Position numbers and translations under genes: made by a program. The notes under the pieces are model-generated. The model was given only the letters and a program-made list of their open reading frames with translations. It made no database searches and was not told the origin of the DNA. 64,000 nucleotides of DNA from Idiomarina sp. (GTDB lineage Bacteria > Pseudomonadota > Gammaproteobacteria > Enterobacterales > Alteromonadaceae), in contig JAIUMU010000002.1 of assembly GCA_022565355.1 (NCBI GenBank), positions 124,001-188,000 of the forward strand, given 5' to 3'. This document shows positions 21,028 through 63,809 of this stretch, piece by piece (positions within the stretch are counted from its first letter, which is position 1; each line of letters starts with the position of its first letter).

Positions 21028-21170
21028 AGATTGGGGTCAGTGAGCACCGTCTCCGTCCCCAATCTTTTTGGGGACAGAGGAAACGGGGCTGTAGGCCTTT
21101 AGATATCTGGGAGTGCGGTTCGCGAAGCAAAGAATGGGGTCAGTGACGGTGCTCACTGACACCATTTTAC
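21028..21170 (+). repeat. 143-bp palindromic repeat, copy 1 (direct-repeat partner at 26288)
   Basis: It starts AGATTGGGGTCAGTGAGC on the base after the pgi stop codon. It contains a 28-bp unit with ends GGGGTCAGTGAG and CCGTCCCC, and a terminal 28-bp near-palindrome, GGGGTCAGTGACGG...CTCACTGACACC. The copy at 26288-26430 has the same length and orientation; I count 12 mismatches in 143, with no gaps. Confidence 0.9.
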
Positions 21171-26287: not shown

Positions 26288-26430
26288 AGATTGGGGTCAG
26301 TGAGCACCGTCTCCGTCCCCAATCTTTTTGGGGACAGAGGAAACGGGGCGGTAGGCCTTTAAATATGTAGAAGTTTGGTTGGTGAAGCACAGAATGGTGT
26401 CAGTGACGGTGCTCACTGACACCAATTTAC
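26288..26430 (+). repeat. 143-bp palindromic repeat, copy 2
   Basis: Same orientation, same length and about 92% identical by hand alignment to 21028-21170. The two copies bracket the 5-kb lipoprotein gene. It fills most of the 330-nt gap between the lipoprotein start and the first small ORF; the rest is AT-rich promoter-like sequence. Confidence 0.9.
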
Positions 26431-39800: not shown

Positions 39801-40976
39801 ATGTTGGCGATACAGCGTGGCAGTGGCGATCCGGATGCTATTTTGGCGCGCTTTTATGCGCAGCAAAGCCAAATTCGCTTAAGCCCTCCGAGCGTGCCGA
39901 ACCCAAATTTCGATATTTTAATTCTCAATGTTTGCTCACTATCGTGGCAAGATTTGCAGCAATTTGATCTGCTGGATCATCCACTGTGGGCGCAAGCCGA
40001 CATTATGCTCAGTAATTTTTACACCGGTAGTTCGTATTCTGGGCCGGCCACCTTGCGCTTGTTGCAAGCTAGTTGCGGCCACGTGCCTCATCGGCAGCTG
40101 TTTGAACCGGAAGGCGAATGCCTGATTAACGAGCAGCTTGCAGCCCTTGGCTTTGATGCTGAGATTCGCATGAACCACAGCGGCGCGTTTGATAACTTTT
40201 TACGGCAAATTCGTGAGCTTGGCGGCATGCAGGATGCACAGGTTGTGAGCCCCGAGCAATTTCCAATTGCTATGAGTGGCTTTGACCAGGCACCGATTCG
40301 GGCAGATAGCGCAATATTTACTGATTGGCTGGATACTCTCGGTGAAACGCCGAAATTCACCTTCTATAACACCATGAGTTTGCACGATGGCAACCGTTTA
40401 TCGGGCTTTCGCGGTAACAGTATGGCGAGCTATCGAACGTGGGCCAAAAACCTGCTGGATGATACGCTGCAACTGTTTCAAGATATTGAGGCAAGTGGCC
40501 GCAATGTGCTGGTAGTAATGGTGCCGGAGCATGGTGCGGGGCTGCAAGGCGATCGCATGCAACTGCCCGGTATGCGTGAGATTCCAACCCCTGAACTTAC
40601 CCATGTGCCCGTGCTGTTTAAGCTATTTGGTGAGGGTGTTTCTGGGGCTGCTGGTTTGAGTGCGGCGGGTTCAGGTGCCGGTTCAGGTTTAAGTTCTGGC
40701 GCAGGTTCTGCTAGATCGAGCGCGGATTCTGGCACACGGCCGCACGAACTTGTGCAAATTGGCCATGCCACTGGGCCTAGCGCAATTGCCGAAGTGATAT
40801 ACGAAATTATCCGCCAACAGCCGTTTACTGGGGGACGTTATCGCCCTGCTGAAATCGCTGGAGCGGTGAACGAAACATTGCCTGTGTTGGAAAATGACCG
40901 GGTGATTATGCTGAATGTGGAAGGGCAGTTTCTTCTGCAAATTAACAATGGAGAGTGGCGGCCTTATAACCGCTAA
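39801..40976 (+). CDS. bcsG: BcsG catalytic domain (cellulose phosphoethanolamine transferase) lacking the membrane domain
   Basis: 391 aa; E. coli BcsG is about 559 with an N-terminal multi-helix membrane region. Catalytic residues align by spacing: Zn-ligand C45 (NVCSLSW), nucleophile S80 (SSYSGPA), H195 (SLHDGN), E243-H244 (VPEHGAG). The numbering offset to E. coli is about 198 residues, which is the size of the missing membrane part. No signal peptide or transmembrane segment is seen, and no Shine-Dalgarno precedes the ATG. The reading frame is open upstream only to a TAG at 39675 and has no other ATG. A Gly/Ser/Ala-rich insertion lies near residues 280-305. It may be soluble and inactive on periplasmic cellulose, or exported another way. 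Confidence 0.85.
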   Translation: MLAIQRGSGDPDAILARFYAQQSQIRLSPPSVPNPNFDILILNVCSLSWQDLQQFDLLDHPLWAQADIMLSNFYTGSSYSGPATLRLLQASCGHVPHRQLFEPEGECLINEQLAALGFDAEIRMNHSGAFDNFLRQIRELGGMQDAQVVSPEQFPIAMSGFDQAPIRADSAIFTDWLDTLGETPKFTFYNTMSLHDGNRLSGFRGNSMASYRTWAKNLLDDTLQLFQDIEASGRNVLVVMVPEHGAGLQGDRMQLPGMREIPTPELTHVPVLFKLFGEGVSGAAGLSAAGSGAGSGLSSGAGSARSSADSGTRPHELVQIGHATGPSAIAEVIYEIIRQQPFTGGRYRPAEIAGAVNETLPVLENDRVIMLNVEGQFLLQINNGEWRPYNR

Positions 40977-40993: not shown

Positions 40994-42529
40994 ATGGACG
41001 TAATACACCACGGCGCGGCAAGCGGCGTTACCGGCTCATGCCACGAGCTCGTTGTAGCACCCGGCGCCTCAGTTTTAGTGGATATTGGCTTGTTTCAAGG
41101 GGCAGAAACCAGCGGCGCCGATACAGTTAGCGGTGATGCCGGCGAGAACAACCAAGCCATTGATTTTTCACTCGATAATGTGCGCGCGTTAGTAATTACT
41201 CACTGCCACATAGACCACGTGGGCCGCCTACCCTGGCTGCTCATCGCCGGATTCCGCAAACCCATCTTTTGTACTCGCGCCACCGCACATTTGCTGCCCA
41301 TGGTAATCGAGGACGCCCTAAAAGTTGGCCTCACCCGCAACGCCCAACTCATTCAAGCCGTGCTGAAACTGCTAAATGGCCTGCTGCATCCCGTAGATTA
41401 CGATGAATGGCTCGAGCTTGGCACCATCGATGCCGCGCTGCCGCTGCGCCTGCGCTTCCGCCAAGCCGGCCACATTCTTGGCTCTTCTTATGTTGAATTT
41501 GAGGGGGCAGAGAAGAAGGGGTCAGTGAGCGCGGTGTCGGAGAGAGAGGTGTCAGTGACGGTGGTGTCAGAGACGGCGGTGTCAGAGACGGCGGTGTCAG
41601 ACACCGCGCTCACTGACCCCAATCTCTCGGGCAAGCCGCAGCGGATCGTGTTTTCTGGGGATTTAGGCTGTAAAAACAGCCCCTTATTGCCGGACCCGCA
41701 GCCGCTGGAGCGCGCGGATATGCTGGTGTTGGAATCTACCTACGGGGATAAAAATCATGAAAATCGTGCCGAGCGGCAGCAACGCTTACAGCGCGTGATT
41801 GAGCATTGCGTTGCCGATCGTGGCGCCGTGCTCATTCCAGCCTTCAGTATTGGCCGCACGCAAGAGCTGCTGTACGAGCTGGAAGATATTATTTACCAAT
41901 GCAAACAAGCTGAATGCGCCAAGGAACAGAGTATTTGGCAAGATATCGTGGTGATCGTTGATTCACCGATGGCCGCCGAGTTTACCCAACAGTATCGTAA
42001 GATGCGCGATTTATGGGATGCCGAAGCGCGCGGCAGGCTAGCTGATGATCGCCATCCGTTGAACTTCAAACGTATGCATATCGTTTCCAGCCACGCAGAA
42101 CACGAGCGTTTGGTGAATTATCTGCGCAGCACCGGCGAACCCTGCATTGTGATCGCCGCCAGCGGCATGTGCACCGGCGGCCGCATGGTGAACTACTTGC
42201 GTGCATTACTTCCCGACCCACGCACCGATGTACTATTCGTTGGCTTTCAGGCTTCCGGCACGCCAGGCCGCGATATTCAACGCTATGGGCCGCGCGGCGG
42301 TTACGTGGATCTTGATGGCGAACGGATATGGATAAAGGCGGAGATTCACACCCTCGGCGGCTATTCCGCACATGCCGACCAGCAAGAACTTATCGAGTTT
42401 ATCGCCACCGCTGAACACGTTGGCCATGTGCGCCTAGTGCATGGCGATGCCGCCGTGCAGCGCGCCTTTCGTAGCATACTGCAGGAGCGCTTCCCGGAAA
42501 TGACCGTAGATTGCGCCTGCGATTTATAG
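40994..42529 (+). CDS. MBL-fold beta-CASP RNA nuclease-like protein with in-frame repeat insertion
   Basis: 511 aa. Metallo-beta-lactamase motif THCHIDHVG near residue 70, QAGHILGSSYVEFE, VFSGDLG, LESTYGDKNHE, and the beta-CASP part with PAFSIGRTQELLYEL, DSPMA, ASGMCTGGRMVNYLR and the C-terminal GYSAHADQQEL. This matches the CPSF73/YsH1-type prokaryotic RNA-processing family. Residues about 173-211 are encoded by a 103-bp palindromic repeat (41518-41620) and read VSETAVSETAVSDTALTDP; this falls between the VEFE and IVFSGD strands, a surface loop in the fold. The SD is AAGGA. It follows bcsG by 17 nt and converges on hipA. Confidence 0.87.
   Translation: MDVIHHGAASGVTGSCHELVVAPGASVLVDIGLFQGAETSGADTVSGDAGENNQAIDFSLDNVRALVITHCHIDHVGRLPWLLIAGFRKPIFCTRATAHLLPMVIEDALKVGLTRNAQLIQAVLKLLNGLLHPVDYDEWLELGTIDAALPLRLRFRQAGHILGSSYVEFEGAEKKGSVSAVSEREVSVTVVSETAVSETAVSDTALTDPNLSGKPQRIVFSGDLGCKNSPLLPDPQPLERADMLVLESTYGDKNHENRAERQQRLQRVIEHCVADRGAVLIPAFSIGRTQELLYELEDIIYQCKQAECAKEQSIWQDIVVIVDSPMAAEFTQQYRKMRDLWDAEARGRLADDRHPLNFKRMHIVSSHAEHERLVNYLRSTGEPCIVIAASGMCTGGRMVNYLRALLPDPRTDVLFVGFQASGTPGRDIQRYGPRGGYVDLDGERIWIKAEIHTLGGYSAHADQQELIEFIATAEHVGHVRLVHGDAAVQRAFRSILQERFPEMTVDCACDL
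41518..41620 (+). repeat. 103-bp palindromic repeat inside the MBL nuclease gene
   Basis: Perfect 21-bp terminal inverted repeats beginning GGGGTCAGTGAGCGCGG and ending CCGCGCTCACTGACCCC. Inside are four imperfect 15-bp units of the form GGTGTCAGAGACGGC, two of them identical. The length fits 28+15n with n=5. It is read in frame as part of the protein. Confidence 0.92.
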
Positions 42530-48316: not shown

Positions 48317-48467
48317 GGGGACAGAGAGAATGGGGTCAGTGAGGCGCCTCACTGACCCCAATCTTCCCCGCGCGCCACAAGGATGCAATCAGCCAAAGGG
48401 CTGGCGGGCGGTTTTCTCTGTCCCCAAAAAAGTTGGGGACGGAGACGGTGCTCACTGACCCCAATCT
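48317..48467 (-). repeat. Composite palindromic repeat between fbpA and the MBL phosphodiesterase
   Basis: Two parts. 48332-48359 is a perfect 28-bp palindrome with arm GGGGTCAGTGAGGC. It lies within a GGGGACAGAGAGAA ... TTCTCTGTCCCC pair. The rest, read on the reverse strand, repeats the first 60 bases or so of the 143-bp element (AGATTGGGGTCAGTGAGC...). On that strand it begins on the base after the stop codon of the 48468-49226 gene. Confidence 0.88.
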
Positions 48468-50686: not shown

Positions 50687-52363
50687 TTACTCTTTCCGCT
50701 CAGTTTCTTTGCTTTCATTAGGGGCAGAGAGAATGGGGTCAGTGAGCACGGTGTCTGACACCGCCGTCTCTGACACCGCGCTCACTGACCCCATCATCTT
50801 CTCCCCAGCATTCGGGTACAGAACCGCAGCGATACGCAGCACGCGGCGGGCACTTTCTTCAAACAGGGAAATAATGTTGAGCATGCGGGTTACTTCCGGC
50901 GCACTGCGCTCGCCCGCTTTCACCGCATTCAATAAATGGCTGCGGCGCGCACGGCGAGTGGCGGCTATATCCGCGAGCAGCTCTTGCCGCTCACTCACGG
51001 TGAGCTCTTTATAATTCACCGGCCGCATCACATCCATAATTTGCGCGCTCAGTTTACCGCGCAGAGCCATAGCGATATCGTCTTGGGGCACGCGCGCCAG
51101 CTCATGCAGGGTATCTTTTAGCTGCACACACTCTTCGCGCGCCCAACTTAAATTCAAAAAGGTTTCCGCTTGCTCGGCCAATGAACCACTGCTACTTAAT
51201 TTATTGCCAAACTCTTGAATAGACCCCAGCAGCGCTGTGGTGTGGAAATCTTCTTCAGGCGGCGCTTCCGCATCGGCATCAATAATTTTCCGCGCCCGCC
51301 CAAGCAACTGCTTGAACACGCGTTTCAGCTCAGAATGCATTGCCGCCACACCCATTGCTGGGATTTCTAACACCGTATCATCTAAGTAGCGCGGTTTTTC
51401 CGAGGTAAGGCCTGGCTGCTTAATCCAACTTTCAACTTTGCGAATAAGGAAGCCGGATAAGAACCACATTAACACCAAACTCAACAAGTTAAACAAGGTA
51501 TGGAACAACGCTAGGCCGGTACTAATGTTTGCGCGCGCATCACCGCCCGCTAGCCATTGAGAAACCCACCATAGCGGCACTAACAGAATTAGGGCAATGA
51601 CCGCCGTAAGGACCTTTTCAATCACGTGGATCAGCGCCAACCGCCGCGCGTTGGTAGTGGCGCCGATGGAGGAAAGCATACTGGTAGCAGTAGTACCGAT
51701 GTTGGCACCAATTACCAATGCCGCACCCAGTAGCGGCGTAAGCACACCAGTAACTGACGCGGTTAAAATGATGGCCAAAGCCGCCGAAGACGATTGGATC
51801 ATGGCGGTAAGCACCGCCCCCACTAGCACGCCGAGCACAATGCCCCAAGCACCCGTAGCACCGAGTTGCTCAAGAGGTAGATAATCCACCACATCAATAA
51901 AGGCATCGCGCAGAATACCAAGGCCTAAAAACAGCACCCCAAACCCTGCCAGTGCCGTTCCAACATGGGGCGCACGGGGTTTATTGCTGAGTATCAGCTT
52001 GAGTAGCATGCCCACACCAATTAGCGGCAGCGCAATTAACTCAACCCTGATTTTTAAGCCCACTAGCGCCACAATCCAGGCGGTCATCGTGGTGCCGAGG
52101 TTGCTACCAAACACCACCCACGCTGCTTGTTTTAAGCGCAGCATACCCGCATTGGTAAAACCCAGCGTAGCCACAATTACCGCACTCGATGATTGCACCA
52201 AAGCGGTAATACTAAAACCAGTGAACGCAGCCCGTAACCGTGTTTGCGTGGAGCGCTCGAGCATCCCGCTCAGCGCTTGCCCTGCCGCTGCTTTCAGGCC
52301 ATCGGTCATCATGCCCATACCGAGCAACAATAAACCCAGTCCACCTAGTGTCATCATTAACAT
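50687..52363 (-). CDS. Na/phosphate cotransporter family protein with PhoU-like tail
   Basis: 558 aa from ATG with AAGGA upstream. Two Na_Pi_cotrans repeats with the QSSS motifs (LVQSSSAVIVATLGF and MIQSSSAALAIILTA), about nine helices, then a cytoplasmic PhoU-like helical domain (residues about 340-510). The last 30-40 residues, including VSAVSETAVSDTVLTDP, are encoded by a 58-bp palindromic repeat, so the natural C-terminus has probably been replaced or extended. It probably imports phosphate with Na+. It is preceded by the GDT1-like gene (54 nt). Confidence 0.9.
   Translation of the reverse strand: MLMMTLGGLGLLLLGMGMMTDGLKAAAGQALSGMLERSTQTRLRAAFTGFSITALVQSSSAVIVATLGFTNAGMLRLKQAAWVVFGSNLGTTMTAWIVALVGLKIRVELIALPLIGVGMLLKLILSNKPRAPHVGTALAGFGVLFLGLGILRDAFIDVVDYLPLEQLGATGAWGIVLGVLVGAVLTAMIQSSSAALAIILTASVTGVLTPLLGAALVIGANIGTTATSMLSSIGATTNARRLALIHVIEKVLTAVIALILLVPLWWVSQWLAGGDARANISTGLALFHTLFNLLSLVLMWFLSGFLIRKVESWIKQPGLTSEKPRYLDDTVLEIPAMGVAAMHSELKRVFKQLLGRARKIIDADAEAPPEEDFHTTALLGSIQEFGNKLSSSGSLAEQAETFLNLSWAREECVQLKDTLHELARVPQDDIAMALRGKLSAQIMDVMRPVNYKELTVSERQELLADIAATRRARRSHLLNAVKAGERSAPEVTRMLNIISLFEESARRVLRIAAVLYPNAGEKMMGSVSAVSETAVSDTVLTDPILSAPNESKETERKE
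50735..50792 (-). repeat. 58-bp palindromic repeat in the 3' end of the Na/Pi gene
   Basis: Read on the coding strand it starts GGGGTCAGTGAGCGCGG and ends CTCACTGACCCC. It has the same core as the 103-bp copy but 45 bp (three 15-bp units) fewer. Terminal 21-bp inverted repeats differ at one base. It is translated in the same frame as in the MBL nuclease. Confidence 0.92.
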
Positions 52364-58188: not shown

Positions 58189-58258
58189 AGATTGGGGTCA
58201 GTGAGGGCGGTGTCAGTGACGCGTTCCTCTGCCCCCATTCTTCTGCCCCCATTCTTCC
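58189..58258 (+). repeat. Degenerate palindromic repeat after arsJ
   Basis: It begins AGATTGGGGTCAGTGAGG seven bases after the arsJ stop and lacks a matching right end. It ends with a duplicated CTGCCCCCATTCTTC. Confidence 0.75.
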
Positions 58259-58818: not shown

Positions 58819-59011
58819 GGGGTCAGTGAGGCACTTCTCTGTCCCTCCCGCGCAGCGCAGTTTGGTGGGCTAGTTGCTGAACTCGAGTGTCTGCCGCATG
58901 GATGCGGCAGCCAAGCCCCCATGGATGGGTTTACGGCGTCTCGAGGGAAGCAACTAGCCCACCAAACTACAGCGCTGCGCCATGGGGACAGAGAAACGCC
59001 TCACTGACCCC
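58819..59011. repeat. 193-bp four-level nested inverted repeat upstream of gltB
   Basis: From outside in: GGGGTCAGTGAGGC / GCCTCACTGACCCC; TCTCTGTCCC / GGGGACAGAGA; CGCAGCGCAG / a CAGCGCTGCG-like partner; then an 18-bp perfect pair TTTGGTGGGCTAGTTGCT (58861-58878) with its complement at 58949-58966; then CTCGAG on both sides. The core matches that of 53057-53177. It occupies half of the 397-nt gap between the small membrane protein and gltB; the gltB promoter should lie in the remaining 100 nt. Confidence 0.92.
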
Positions 59012-59114: not shown

Positions 59115-62100
59115 ATGTTCGAGCGTTCGGTACTTAAGCCAAATTTGCGAAAGCCAAATTTGCGAAAGCAAAATCCAGATGCGTTGTACGGTGCCGCCAC
59201 GCAAGCGAACACGGTGCGTGATAACTGTGGTTTTGGTTTGATTGCACAGCTTGATGGCGAGCCGAGCCATACCATTGTGCAACGCGCGATTACTGCGCTC
59301 GATAGAATGATGCATCGCGGTGCTATTGGCGCTGATGGTAAAACCGGCGATGGTTGTGGTATCCAAATGCAGCTCCCGAAGGCGTTTTTTCAAACCATTG
59401 CCGAGGAACAAGGCTGGAAGCTTGGGAAGAAGTTCGCTGTTGGCCATGTGTTTTTAAGTGCTAATGATGAGAAGCGCAGCCGTGCTAAACGTATTCTTGA
59501 AGAAGAATTGAATAAAGAAACCTTAAGTGTGCACGGTTGGCGTGAAGTGCCTACCTCGCCCGAAGTGCTAGGTGAAATTGCGGCAAGCACCTTGCCGGTG
59601 ATTGAACAAATTTTCGTTTCTGCGCAGCCTGGATGGCGCAAGAAGGATTTGGAACGGCGCTTATATATGGCTCGTCGCCGCGCCGAGAAGCGCATTGCTA
59701 TAGGCGCTTCAGCCGAGCGTGGTGCACCAAGTAACACCGCGAGTACTTCCCCTAATCCTGATGCACCAAACAGCGCCGCTAACGCCGATCCCGATTTCTA
59801 TGTAGCCTCTTTGAGTTGCCTGCTGATTGTGTACAAAGGCCTAATGATGCCGGCAGATTTGCCGCGCTTTTATCATGATTTGGCCGATGAGCGCCTGCAA
59901 AGCGCAATTTGCGTATTTCATCAGCGTTTTTCTACGAACACGCAACCGCGCTGGCCACTTGCGCAGCCCTTTCGTTTTTTGGCGCACAATGGCGAAATCA
60001 ATACCATTGCCGGTAATCGCCAATGGGCGTTGGCCCGCAGCTATAAAATGCACTCGCCGCTACTACCCGATTTAAATGATGCTGCGCCGTTTGTAAGCAG
60101 CGAAGGTTCGGATTCCTCTTCGCTGGATAACATGCTGGAAATGTTGCTCGCCGGGGGTATGGATTTGTTTCGGGCCATGCGCTTGCTCATTCCGCCCGCG
60201 TGGCAAGGTGACCCCACGATGGACGCCAAGTTGCGTGCATTTTACGAATTTAACTCGATGCATATGGAGCCTTGGGATGGTCCAGCCGGTGTGGTATTAA
60301 GCAATGGCCGCCACGTAGCCTGCAGTTTAGATAGAAATGGTTTGCGCCCTGCTCGCTTCGTTATTACTGATGATCGCACTATTACCGTGGCTTCGGAAGT
60401 GGGCACCTGGGATTACCAACCTGAGCAAGTAATAGAGAAAGGCCGTTTAGGCCCCGGCGAAATGCTGGCGGTGGATACCTATAACGGCAAAATTTGGCGC
60501 AGCAAAGAAATTGACCGCGATTTAGAGAGCCGCCACCCCTACAAAGAGTGGCTGGATGCGCATATTTTACGGCTCACTCCATTCGCGAAATTAAGCGCAG
60601 AAGCTATCGGCAAGCGCCTATTTGATGATGCCACTATGGCGGTGTACCACAAGCAATTCTATTACTCGCGGGAAGAAATTGAGCAAGTGATTAAAGTGCT
60701 GGCAGCCGATGGCCAAGAGGCTACGGGATCGATGGGTGATGATACCCCAGTGGCAGTGTTATCGAGCAAACCACGCCTGCTCTATGATTATTTTCGGCAA
60801 CAGTTCGCGCAAGTAACCAACCCGCCAATTGACCCTATTCGAGAGCGTCATGTGATGTCGTTAGGCACTTGTATTGGCCGCGAACAGAACATGTTTAACG
60901 AAACTTCAGGCTATGCCAATCGGGTGCTATTTGAAAGCCCGGTGCTGATGTATACCGATTTAAAACAGCTAAAAGCGTTGGATGACGAGCATTACGCTTG
61001 GCGCAGTTTTTCTTTGCAGTTCAACCCCACCGAACACACTCTTGCCGAAGCAGTGCAGGCATTAGCGGACAACGTAGAGCAAGCCGTACGCAAGGATAAA
61101 ATTGTTATCGTAATCCTTACTGACCGCGCCATTGCTAAAGGCCTGCTGCCAATTCCTGCCGCTATGGCCACCGGCGCGGTGCAAAACCGCTTGGTAACGC
61201 AACAATTGCGCTGTGATGCCAACATTATTGTAGAAACCGCCTCGGCGCGTGATTCCCATCATATTGCGGTGTTGGTGGGGTTAGGCGCAACGGCGGTGTA
61301 TCCGTTTATGGCCTATGAAACCATTGAACAGCTGGTAGACAAAGGTGGTTTGCAGCTGCCTGTGCGGGAGGCTGTAAGCAATTATCGGCAAGGTATTAAT
61401 AAAGGCTTACTGAAAATCATGTCCAAAATGGGCATTGCGGCAGTGTCGAGCTACCGCGGTGCGGGCTTGTTTGAGCTGGTTGGCGTGGCCCCAGATGTAC
61501 ATGAACTTTGTTTCCCTATCTGCCATCGCCGCATTAACGGCGCGAGCTTTGAACATTTCCAGCGCGATCTGCAACTGTTGCATCAACGGGCATGGCTACC
61601 GCGCAAACAGGTAGAGCATGGCGGGCTGCTGAAGTACGTGCATGGCGGGGAATATCACGCCTATAACCCTGAAGTTGTGGCCACGCTGCAGCGCGCCGTG
61701 AACAACCGCGATAGCGCCGAGTACGCGCGCTTCGCTATCGCCGTAAACAACCGTCCCGTAGCCATGCTGCGCGATTTGCTCCGCCTAAAACCTCCCCTGA
61801 TCGCAGAGGATGGGGACAGAGAGAAAGGGGTCAGTGAGCACGGTGTCAGTGACGGCGGACAACGACCCCAATCTACTGTTTTTTCCGCAGAAGCGGACAA
61901 AAAGCCGTTGTTTGCGCGCTTTGATACGGCGGCGATGTCGATTGGAGCGCTAAGCCCGGAGGCGCATGAAGCACTGGCGATTGCGATGAATAAGCTGGGT
62001 GGGCACTCGAACTCTGGCGAAGGTGGTGAAGATCCGGCGCGTTTTGGCACTCTGAAGAATTCGCGTATTAAGCAGATAGCGTCCGGCCGTTTTGGCGTAA

Positions 62101-63809
62101 CGCCACATTACTTGGTGAACGCCGATGTGCTGCAAATCAAAATTGCGCAAGGGGCGAAACCTGGTGAAGGGGGGCAACTGCCGGGTGAAAAAGTTACTGC
62201 GGAGATCGCTAAACTACGTTTCTCTGTGCCCGGCGTTACACTCATTTCGCCGCCGCCGCATCACGATATCTATTCCATTGAAGATCTCGCCCAATTGATT
62301 TTCGATCTCAAACAGGTAAACCCAGATGCGCTTATTTCGGTGAAACTGGTTTCTGAGCCCGGCATTGGCACCATCGCCACGGGGGTGGCCAAAGCCTACG
62401 CCGATTTAATTACCGTAAGCGGTTACGATGGCGGCACCGGCGCCAGCCCACTTACTTCAGTGAAATACGCCGGTTCACCTTGGGAGCTTGGCCTCGCTGA
62501 AGTGCATGAAGCATTAGTTACCAACGGCCTGCGCCACAAAGTGCGCCTGCAAGTGGATGGTGGCTTGAAAACTGGCCTCGATATCATTAAAGCAGCCATC
62601 TTGGGCGCCGAAAGCTTCGGCTTTGGTACCGCCCCCATGATAGCGTTGGGCTGCAAATACCTGCGTATTTGTCATCTTAATAACTGCGCCACCGGCGTGG
62701 CTACGCAAGATCAAACGCTGCGCCAACAGTTCTTCAATGGTTTACCGGAAAAGGTAGAAAACTATTTCCATCTGCTGAAAGAGGAAGTGGAAGGCTATCT
62801 TGAGCAACTGCAGGTAGCCGATATTACCGATCTAATCGGCCGCACGGATTTATTAGAACAAGTAAGCGATAACTTACACCACAAGGCCGCCGCTATCGAT
62901 TTGGCGCCAGTTCTTAAATCGGCCGGTGTTACCTCACAGCAGCCGTTATTTTGCACAGAAAAGAATCCGCCACACGATAAAGGCGCACTTAACCAACGGC
63001 TACTTGCAGAATGCAGCGCCGCCGCGCAACAACGCAAAAGCCGCGATTGCCATTTCCCGATTCGCAACGATGATCGCTCGGCAGGTGCCAGCCTTTCCGG
63101 CTTCATTGCCAAGCAACATGGTTTGCAGGGTATTGCCGGTACACCCCTACGCTTGCACTTTACCGGCACTGCCGGACAAAGCTTTGGCGTGTGGAACGCC
63201 CCTGGCCTGCACCTGTTCTTAACTGGCGATGCTAATGATTACGTAGGCAAAGGCATGGCGGGAGGCCGTATTACTCTGCAACCTGCCGCCAACGCCTCGT
63301 TTGCTAGCCACACCGCTGTAATTATGGGCAACACCTGTCTATATGGCGCTACCGGCGGACGTTTGTATGCCGCTGGGCTTGCAGGTGAGCGCTTTGCCGT
63401 GCGCAATAGCGGTGCGGTAGCCGTGGTAGAAGGCATTGGCGATCACGGCTGTGAATACATGACCGGCGGTGTGGTGGTGGTACTCGGCAACACCGGCATC
63501 AATTTCGGTGCCGGCATGACCGGAGGTATGGCCTACATTTTGGACGAAAACAACGATTTTGAGCAACGCATGAACAGCGAGCTTACCGAAACTGTAGCCA
63601 TTGAATCGCCGATTTTGAAGGAGCATTTACGGGGCTTTATTCACGATCATATGGAGCACACCGGTAGTGAGCGTTCCCGGCAAATTTTGGCCGAATTCGA
63701 AGAATGGTTACCGAAATTCCGGTTGGTGAAACCAAAAGCCCGCGATATTCGTGATCTGCTTGGCCATCGCGCTCGTTCCACCGATTCCATTCGTGTGGAG
63801 GTAATGTAA
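59115..63809 (+). CDS. gltB: Glutamate synthase (NADPH) large subunit with in-frame repeat insertion
   Basis: 1564 aa from ATG at 59115 (AGGTGGGAG upstream). The frame runs back to 58887 only through repeat sequence. A 37-residue propeptide with a duplicated [11 protein letters not shown] precedes the N-terminal nucleophile C38 ([11 protein letters not shown]) of the class II amidotransferase. Then [14 protein letters not shown], the central domain, the FMN-binding domain ([42 protein letters not shown]), the Fe-S/GlnE-like part [17 protein letters not shown], and the C-terminal beta-helix ([11 protein letters not shown]). Residues about 899-920 ([14 protein letters not shown]) come from a palindromic repeat. 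A low-complexity Ser/Asn/Pro/Ala loop lies near 205-225. It makes glutamate from glutamine and 2-oxoglutarate with GltD. Confidence 0.95.
   Translation: [1564 protein letters not shown]
61811..61869 (+). repeat. Palindromic repeat inside gltB (43-bp unit with GGGGACAGAGAGAA leader)
   Basis: The 43-bp unit 61827-61869 starts GGGGTCAGTGAGCACGG and ends GACCCC with a degenerate right arm. It is preceded by GGGGACAGAGAGAAA, the same leader as in the copies at 48317 and 50721. It is translated in a different frame from the other two intragenic copies. Confidence 0.88.

Follow-up and report, generated by a model that had tools for sequence, protein, structure and literature searches.

The nuclease gene and its in-frame element

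The window, by which we mean the whole 64-kb stretch of DNA that was analysed, encodes at 40994..42529 on the forward strand an MBL-fold/beta-CASP nuclease of 511 aa. Pfam recognises Beta-Casp (1.3e-33), RMMBL (3.8e-13) and Lactamase_B (4e-9) in this open reading frame (ORF), and the best solved relative of its product in the PDB is the ribonuclease TTHA0252 (7.1e-87 with a family profile); the three domains and conserved motifs identify it as a TTHA0252-like beta-CASP nuclease, and its invariant residues were located in an alignment of 13 retained homologues. The neighbouring BcsG-like ORF (window 39801-40976) has a best stretch matching only profile positions 163-441 of 516 and is rich in glycine, serine and alanine near its end; it may be shortened or wrongly started.

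Within the nuclease frame, at 41518..41620, lies a 103-bp element of the TIR/REP type with 15-bp internal units, which is read through as GSVSAVSEREVSVTVVSETAVSETAVSDTALTDP. As the initial annotation had described, the 21 bases at one end are the exact reverse complement of the 21 at the other, and it sits in the frame of the ORF. The 15-base periodicity extends over 41501-41620 as a reference copy and five overlapping copies of 60-71% identity. The element folds strongly both as RNA (-71.4 kcal/mol, where shuffles average -37.7; z -9.8) and as single-stranded DNA (z -8.5), with none of 200 shuffles as good in either case, and scans of the 64-kb window gave no Rfam match at gathering scores and no tRNA. 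Only two of the six frames across the element are free of stops, namely the one in use and its mirror on the opposite strand, whose peptide closely resembles that of the used frame. The suggestion that the element was tolerated because its frames carry no stops thus fails, since the other four contain them.

The insert occupies a turn that is short at the corresponding place in the TTHA0252 alignment and that connects the conserved GHILGS and FSGDLG stretches, which we take to hold the metal ligands of the nuclease; here 53 aa lie between these two motifs. The alignment gap that had been forecast for residues 173-211 is found, as congeners lacking the insert align up to about residues 168-172 and resume at about 211-217. 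The stretch that they lack, approximately residues 171-214 (41504..41635, forward strand), is delimited by alignment breaks and is somewhat wider than the element. In a structure model predicted from a 22-sequence alignment (pLDDT 82, pTM 0.84) the element falls in a low-confidence loop, in agreement with the loop position proposed earlier, with residues 175-186 and 192-212 predicted at pLDDT below 50 between strands 165-171 and 217-220. A second stretch that varies in length among congeners, residues 36-52 (window 41099-41149), is also predicted at pLDDT below 50.

A repeat family and a transposase in the same region

The element is one copy of a multi-copy family, as expected of the mobile-type repeat that the initial annotation had supposed. 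In its own genome (G000; 2.72 Mb, 95% complete) the exact 11-base head GGGGTCAGTGA, termed head A, occurs 36 times and its reversed control not at all, and all 36 copies lie on contig C2 at 38,180-204,268, a span of 166 kb or 6% of the genome. Paired elements in this genome measure 28, 43, 58 and 103 bp, that is 28 plus 0, 1, 2 and 5 times 15, besides composites of 131 bp. Three such composites, REPIN-like with their outer heads 103 bp apart, lie in the window at 21033..21163 (one inner head mismatched), 26293..26423 (two inner heads mismatched) and 48332..48462. The window also contains a 58-bp paired element (50735..50792) into which the 3' portions of two convergent open frames extend, a single head followed 15 bp further by a one-mismatch head (58194..58219), a single head on the upstream side of the glutamate synthase gene gltB (58819..58829) and another upstream of the proposed gltB start (59001..59011).

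The paired lengths of 28 plus multiples of 15 are consistent with growth by whole 15-bp units, so that the reading frame is kept, in line with what had been proposed for gain and loss of units. This stepwise series, together with the 15-bp periodicity, is also what local coding sequence would give if it had simply expanded by tandem repetition or slippage, with no mobile DNA involved. As a full account such an expansion is highly improbable, the same sequence being found at many other sites, intergenic, genic and beside the transposase, and the existence of the multi-copy family rules out slippage as the sole origin; slippage is nevertheless the likely source of the unit number.

A single match to Y1_Tnp in the whole G000 genome (6e-17) falls inside the C2 head cluster, in an open frame of 232 aa on the minus strand (C2:101961-102701). 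Its best match is the NCBIfam REP transposase model REP_Tyr_transpos (6.3e-19; 68.3 bits, below the 80-bit cut-off), and the motifs HIH and YIELNPV, presumably the signature motifs of such a transposase, are visible by eye, as in HUH/RAYT-type proteins. Family repeats flank the frame on both sides, the upstream copy being a head with one mismatch, and GGGGTCAG is present at both of its ends, giving the flanking GGGGWSAS arrangement of a TIRtron. The window element has two inverted heads in one hairpin, as a REPIN does; the extragenic dispersed population of REPINs has no counterpart here, as some copies are genic and the cluster is regional, and by eye no GTAG tag stands beside the palindrome. 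Judged by sequence, the published TIR/REP element class fits the G000 repeat family, and the element in the nuclease gene is probably a non-autonomous TIR/REP-type miniature element mobilised by the Y1/HUH transposase of this genome.

Occupancy of the same turn across Aliidiomarina

The comparison within Aliidiomarina, the genus to which the named loci L047, L052 and L054 point, covered 17 genomes, our own and 16 others, with one genome per species. A close orthologue of the nuclease was found in 16 of these, G005 having distant matches only. Loop DNA was called palindromic when its inverted arms reached at least nine bases, a threshold passed by six of the 16 orthologues: G000 (21 bases), G006 (32), G003 (13), G008 (11), G013 (9) and G014 (9), each arm being matched by 0-3 of 200 mononucleotide shuffles. 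Locus L047, on a named contig, also passes it and looks like the same assembly as G003, which it therefore repeats. The other ten orthologues have 12-15 aa between the two motifs, except G004 with 24 aa. Loops were parsed at 100 of 110 loci, and of the ten others four (G004, G016, L033 and L036) were read by eye only. Two parsed loops stayed below the threshold and were not counted as palindromic, namely L025 (from G012), of normal length with a 7-base arm better than all 200 shuffles, and L038, with an 8-base arm matched by 5 of 200 shuffles.

Outside the genus, arms of nine bases or more were absent from the other parsed loci. The parsed loops of other genera are mostly short; those of L051, L074, L091, L101, L108 and L113 are long (31-43 aa) and consist of other sequences with inverted-repeat arms of only 5-8 bases. 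The same loop encoded by non-repeat DNA in unrelated genera, which would have spoken against the initial interpretation, did not appear among the parsed loops.

An assembly artefact or a pseudogene might be suspected, as the species is represented by a single draft genome and long hairpins can disturb assembly. We regard this as very improbable: the frame is open, its residues are conserved among the 13 retained homologues, and similar occupation is seen in five other genomes, including the single-contig G008, and in L047 (apparently the G003 assembly again). A host role for the peptide, or for the mRNA hairpin in, for example, control of the nuclease's own message, could draw on the very strong RNA hairpin within the message of a ribonuclease-like protein and on the presence of the insert in three sister species. 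However, the encoded peptides differ between species, five other congeners having different loop peptides, 10 of the 16 orthologues have no such insert, and unrelated genes of the same region carry such inserts too. The earlier description of the repeat as domesticated is thus very improbable, and the different peptides and the insert-free congeners lead us to favour tolerance, with the insert probably neutral for the protein.

A tree of the nuclease protein, built with the loop omitted, requires the palindrome label to change at least twice. We read these as two gains because the repeat classes differ; the tree by itself also fits a gain with losses.

Local repeat families and transposase neighbourhoods

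Each of the six palindromic loops matches repeats in the neighbourhood of its own genome (BLAST of fetched stretches, E up to 0.05), with 68 aligned pieces in G000, 31 in G006, 34 in G003, 21 in G008, 32 in G013 and 21 in G014, self-matches included. The loops had no match in the distant stretches read, which amounted to 132 kb in G006, 120 kb in G003 and 140 kb in G008; G013 and G014 were compared with the neighbourhood only. Genome-wide counts of family cores point the same way, with some exceptions. In G003 all 17 sites of the main head lie on C7 at 135-226 kb (reversed control, one), and in G006 14 of 18 core sites lie on the nuclease contig and four elsewhere. G008 is a complete genome in a single contig, and there nine of the ten sites of the loop core fall in a 103-kb arc that includes a transposase, the tenth being at 474 kb. 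A second G008 family has 13 of its 18 sites near transposases at 79 kb and 2.708 Mb and five at 1.42-1.54 Mb, two of them within the far stretch used. That the G008 cluster marks the replication origin was considered and set aside, GC skew showing no sign flip there, being negative in 2.66-2.74 Mb and 0-0.16 Mb and positive at 1.30-1.44 Mb.

Y1 transposases were found in 16 of the 17 genomes and not in G006, where the gene may have been lost or may lie in an assembly gap. Transposase and nuclease share a contig in 13 genomes, with the nearest transposase about 3 to 77 kb away, and are on different contigs in G013 and G015. By similarity the compared transposases form two groups, one found in 11 genomes and the other in 6, a division made without the other copy of G014 (L143). 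Both groups occur in G007, where they lie about 21 kb apart (L222 and L216) with different abundant 12-mers around each, and in G014, where the other copy shares 47% identity with the G000 transposase. The second group includes the G013 transposase and the G014 copy near the nuclease, and GTAG-tagged repeats and 12-mers are abundant around both; the G013 and G014 loops match these local GTAG-rich repeats, but have GTAC or GTGC beside the palindrome instead of GTAG. Also near a transposase in G014 (L164; C45, about 46.9-49.5 kb) is a regular array of palindrome units spaced every 110-118 bases or so.

Other occupied genes

A second gene of the window with an in-frame family element is gltB, encoding the glutamate synthase large subunit (59115..63809, forward strand, start codon proposed; Pfam GATase_2, Glu_syn_central, Glu_synthase and GXGXG). 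Its 43-bp element (61827..61869) has unlike ends, GGGGTCAGTGA and GACAACGACCCC, and a scan over 218 kb of C2 gave no other exact GACAACGACCCC head. In G000, G003 and G006, three sister species, in-frame repeats are also present in a photolyase-like gene and in a small conserved ORF next to the transposase, so that with the nuclease four genes carry elements in all three, gltB of G006 only partially; the names photolyase and gltB come from Pfam matches obtained in G000 only. The small ORF (G000 C2:101391-101813, or 17391-17813 of L010) contains repeat sequence in all three species and has no Pfam family in any of three homologues; by gene order alone it would be a candidate HolD. In the G003 photolyase (L255) the loop insert is an in-frame tandem array in which a 39-bp unit, read as KVPELRDNDPNFI, recurs in three near-copies.

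Loops of gltB were parsed at 14 of 15 loci, the exception being G008, with mononucleotide shuffles. Outside the trio, comparison with a genome's own family covered the gltB genes of G005 and G001, and by eye, with 12-mers as the reference, both also contain part of their own repeat; in G001 the match is 15 of 16 bases and the loop has normal length. Where the photolyase orthologue lies on another contig, or 1.4 Mb away as in G008, inspection by eye shows no loop repeat in any of the five parsed (G001, G005, G016, G008 and G002; G011 and G004 were unparsed).

Element ends in three sister species

Beside head A (GGGGTCAGTGA) we distinguish head B (GGGGTCGTTGTC). The C2 stretches scanned in G000 hold 36 A and one B, C34 of G006 holds no A and 14 B, and 160 kb of G003 hold 10 A and 17 B. 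The nuclease element has unlike ends in G003 (B...A) and like ends in G000 (A...A) and G006 (B...B). The gltB element is A...B in both G000 and G003, its right end being the one B head of G000, and this right end, GGACAACGACCCC, is common to all three sister species. The left end of the nuclease element stands in the same frame and at about the same codons throughout the trio (KKGSVS, KKMGSLS, QKMGSLS), and there is almost no similarity among the three interiors.

The simplest reading of these sequences suggests one old insertion per gene, whose arms were later made alike, and the unlike ends of the nuclease element in G003, both A in G000 and both B in G006, favour rewriting in place. The direction of change is left unfixed by the weak placement of G003 within the trio in the nuclease tree (84/67).

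Repeated fresh insertion would dispense with rewriting altogether: the turn would be among the few places in the cluster region that tolerate extra residues, and local palindromes would land there again and again. The two or more changes in the tree and the involvement of two transposase groups are in keeping with this, as is the fact that the same turn holds long non-palindromic loops in other genera. Elements also lie in conserved coding sequence less often than its share predicts, as if most had been purged (5 of 20 against 12.5 expected in G000, P 0.0008; 6 of 13 against 9.5 in G003, P 0.03; 6 of 11 against 8.4 in G006, P 0.10; exact cores only, some of the ORFs being small). The left ends of the trio at about the same codons and in the same frame, and the shared gltB right end, argue instead for one event per gene, and we consider repeated insertion a real possibility of somewhat less than even probability.

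A proposed history of the loop

The account that we consider reasonably likely is of an ancestral insertion in the trio with later rewriting in place, by a TIR/REP-type miniature element probably moved by the Y1 transposase, and of independent occupation of the turn elsewhere in the genus. The ancestor of the three sister Aliidiomarina species would have acquired the element in the beta-hairpin turn of the nuclease, where it could survive by having hit an open frame with a length that is a multiple of three and by adding only a floppy loop. Its arms would later have been rewritten, each species now showing its own resident type, most likely through arm-to-arm copying (hairpin template switching), perhaps assisted by repeated action of the transposase at the same hairpin. 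Arm copying alone would be insufficient, because the interiors of the elements are almost wholly different; new interiors may have arisen in an additional step, for example if other local repeats were inserted or exchanged sequence with the element. Elsewhere in the genus an independent occupation of this turn is probable, and in two of the species concerned the repeats there belong to a different transposase group.

This account is weakened by G006, which combines a highly symmetrical element with no transposase found, by the stray core sites (4/18 in G006, 1/10 in G008 and 5/18 in the second G008 family) and by the misfit of head B to GGGGWSAS. More broadly, gene loops might act as long-term refuges for miniature mobile DNA: as deletions there are constrained to be in frame, elements in important genes would outlive intergenic copies and have their arms rewritten to the resident type, while the family would spread mainly within about 100-200 kb of the transposase. 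We put this forward as a rather unlikely generalisation; if it is true, the host proteins of sister species hold a running record of their selfish DNA.

Selfish DNA seems to settle repeatedly in the nuclease loop, and the case shows a route by which such DNA can lengthen protein loops. REP-type elements are extragenic by name and their mode of spread is poorly understood. This genus offers aligned copies of one element in sister species, clustered near the transposase and at fixed gene loops, which allow one to ask whether transposition is local and by what means the symmetry of the arms is maintained.

Relation to known systems

In the literature consulted, mostly without subscription papers, we found no report of this Aliidiomarina case, of several genes sharing occupied loops with re-typed ends among sister species, or of repeat confinement near a transposase across a whole genus.

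The closest described systems are the TIRtrons, in which, according to the accessible text of PMC3733652, TIR elements with a GGGGWSAS motif flank TIRYT tyrosine transposases. The present family resembles them in having an HUH tyrosine transposase between inverted repeats, with heads that fit the motif (GGGGTCAG), and in the occurrence of its repeats as singles, dimers and groups. It differs from what that text describes in that all exact heads lie in a 166-kb span around the gene, in the copies inside conserved genes at shared loops, and in a second head, GGGGTCGT (head B of G003 and G006), that falls outside the published motif. Most REP families are genome-wide, with one clustered exception, in the portion of PMC3733652 available.

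REPINs with their RAYTs share with these elements the paired inverted heads that form hairpins and a RAYT-like gene, and the 131-bp composites are likewise comparable; REPIN doublets are randomly distributed in extragenic space in the passages available from PMC3116915, whereas the present family is regional and partly genic. Two further published findings, again from partial texts, are that TnpA-REP proteins are reported to cut single-stranded REPs in vitro (PMC8266576) and that the arms of an imperfect palindrome are known to become alike through template switching between them (PMC8604942, PMC7202029, PMC8794818). Rickettsia palindromic elements, of about 150 bp, likewise place palindromic DNA in frame within protein genes as outlined in the accessible parts of PMC10969869 and PMC3733652; the likeness is one of description, and the linked transposase and local clustering seen here set the present elements apart from that description.

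In-frame GTAG/CGTC REPs inside known genes have already been published, and the accessible text of PMC3733652 includes, besides a REP within a photoreactivating enzyme of Thauera, a pair of Xanthomonas species with different REPs at about the same recB site. The in-frame repeats described here within known genes are of the same kind; unlike the intragenic REPs as that text presents them, they are found in four genes of all three sister species and have re-typed ends, and across the genus two repeat classes share one loop. In-frame REPs are therefore already known, and what appears to be new is the shared, re-typed occupancy together with confinement near the transposase.
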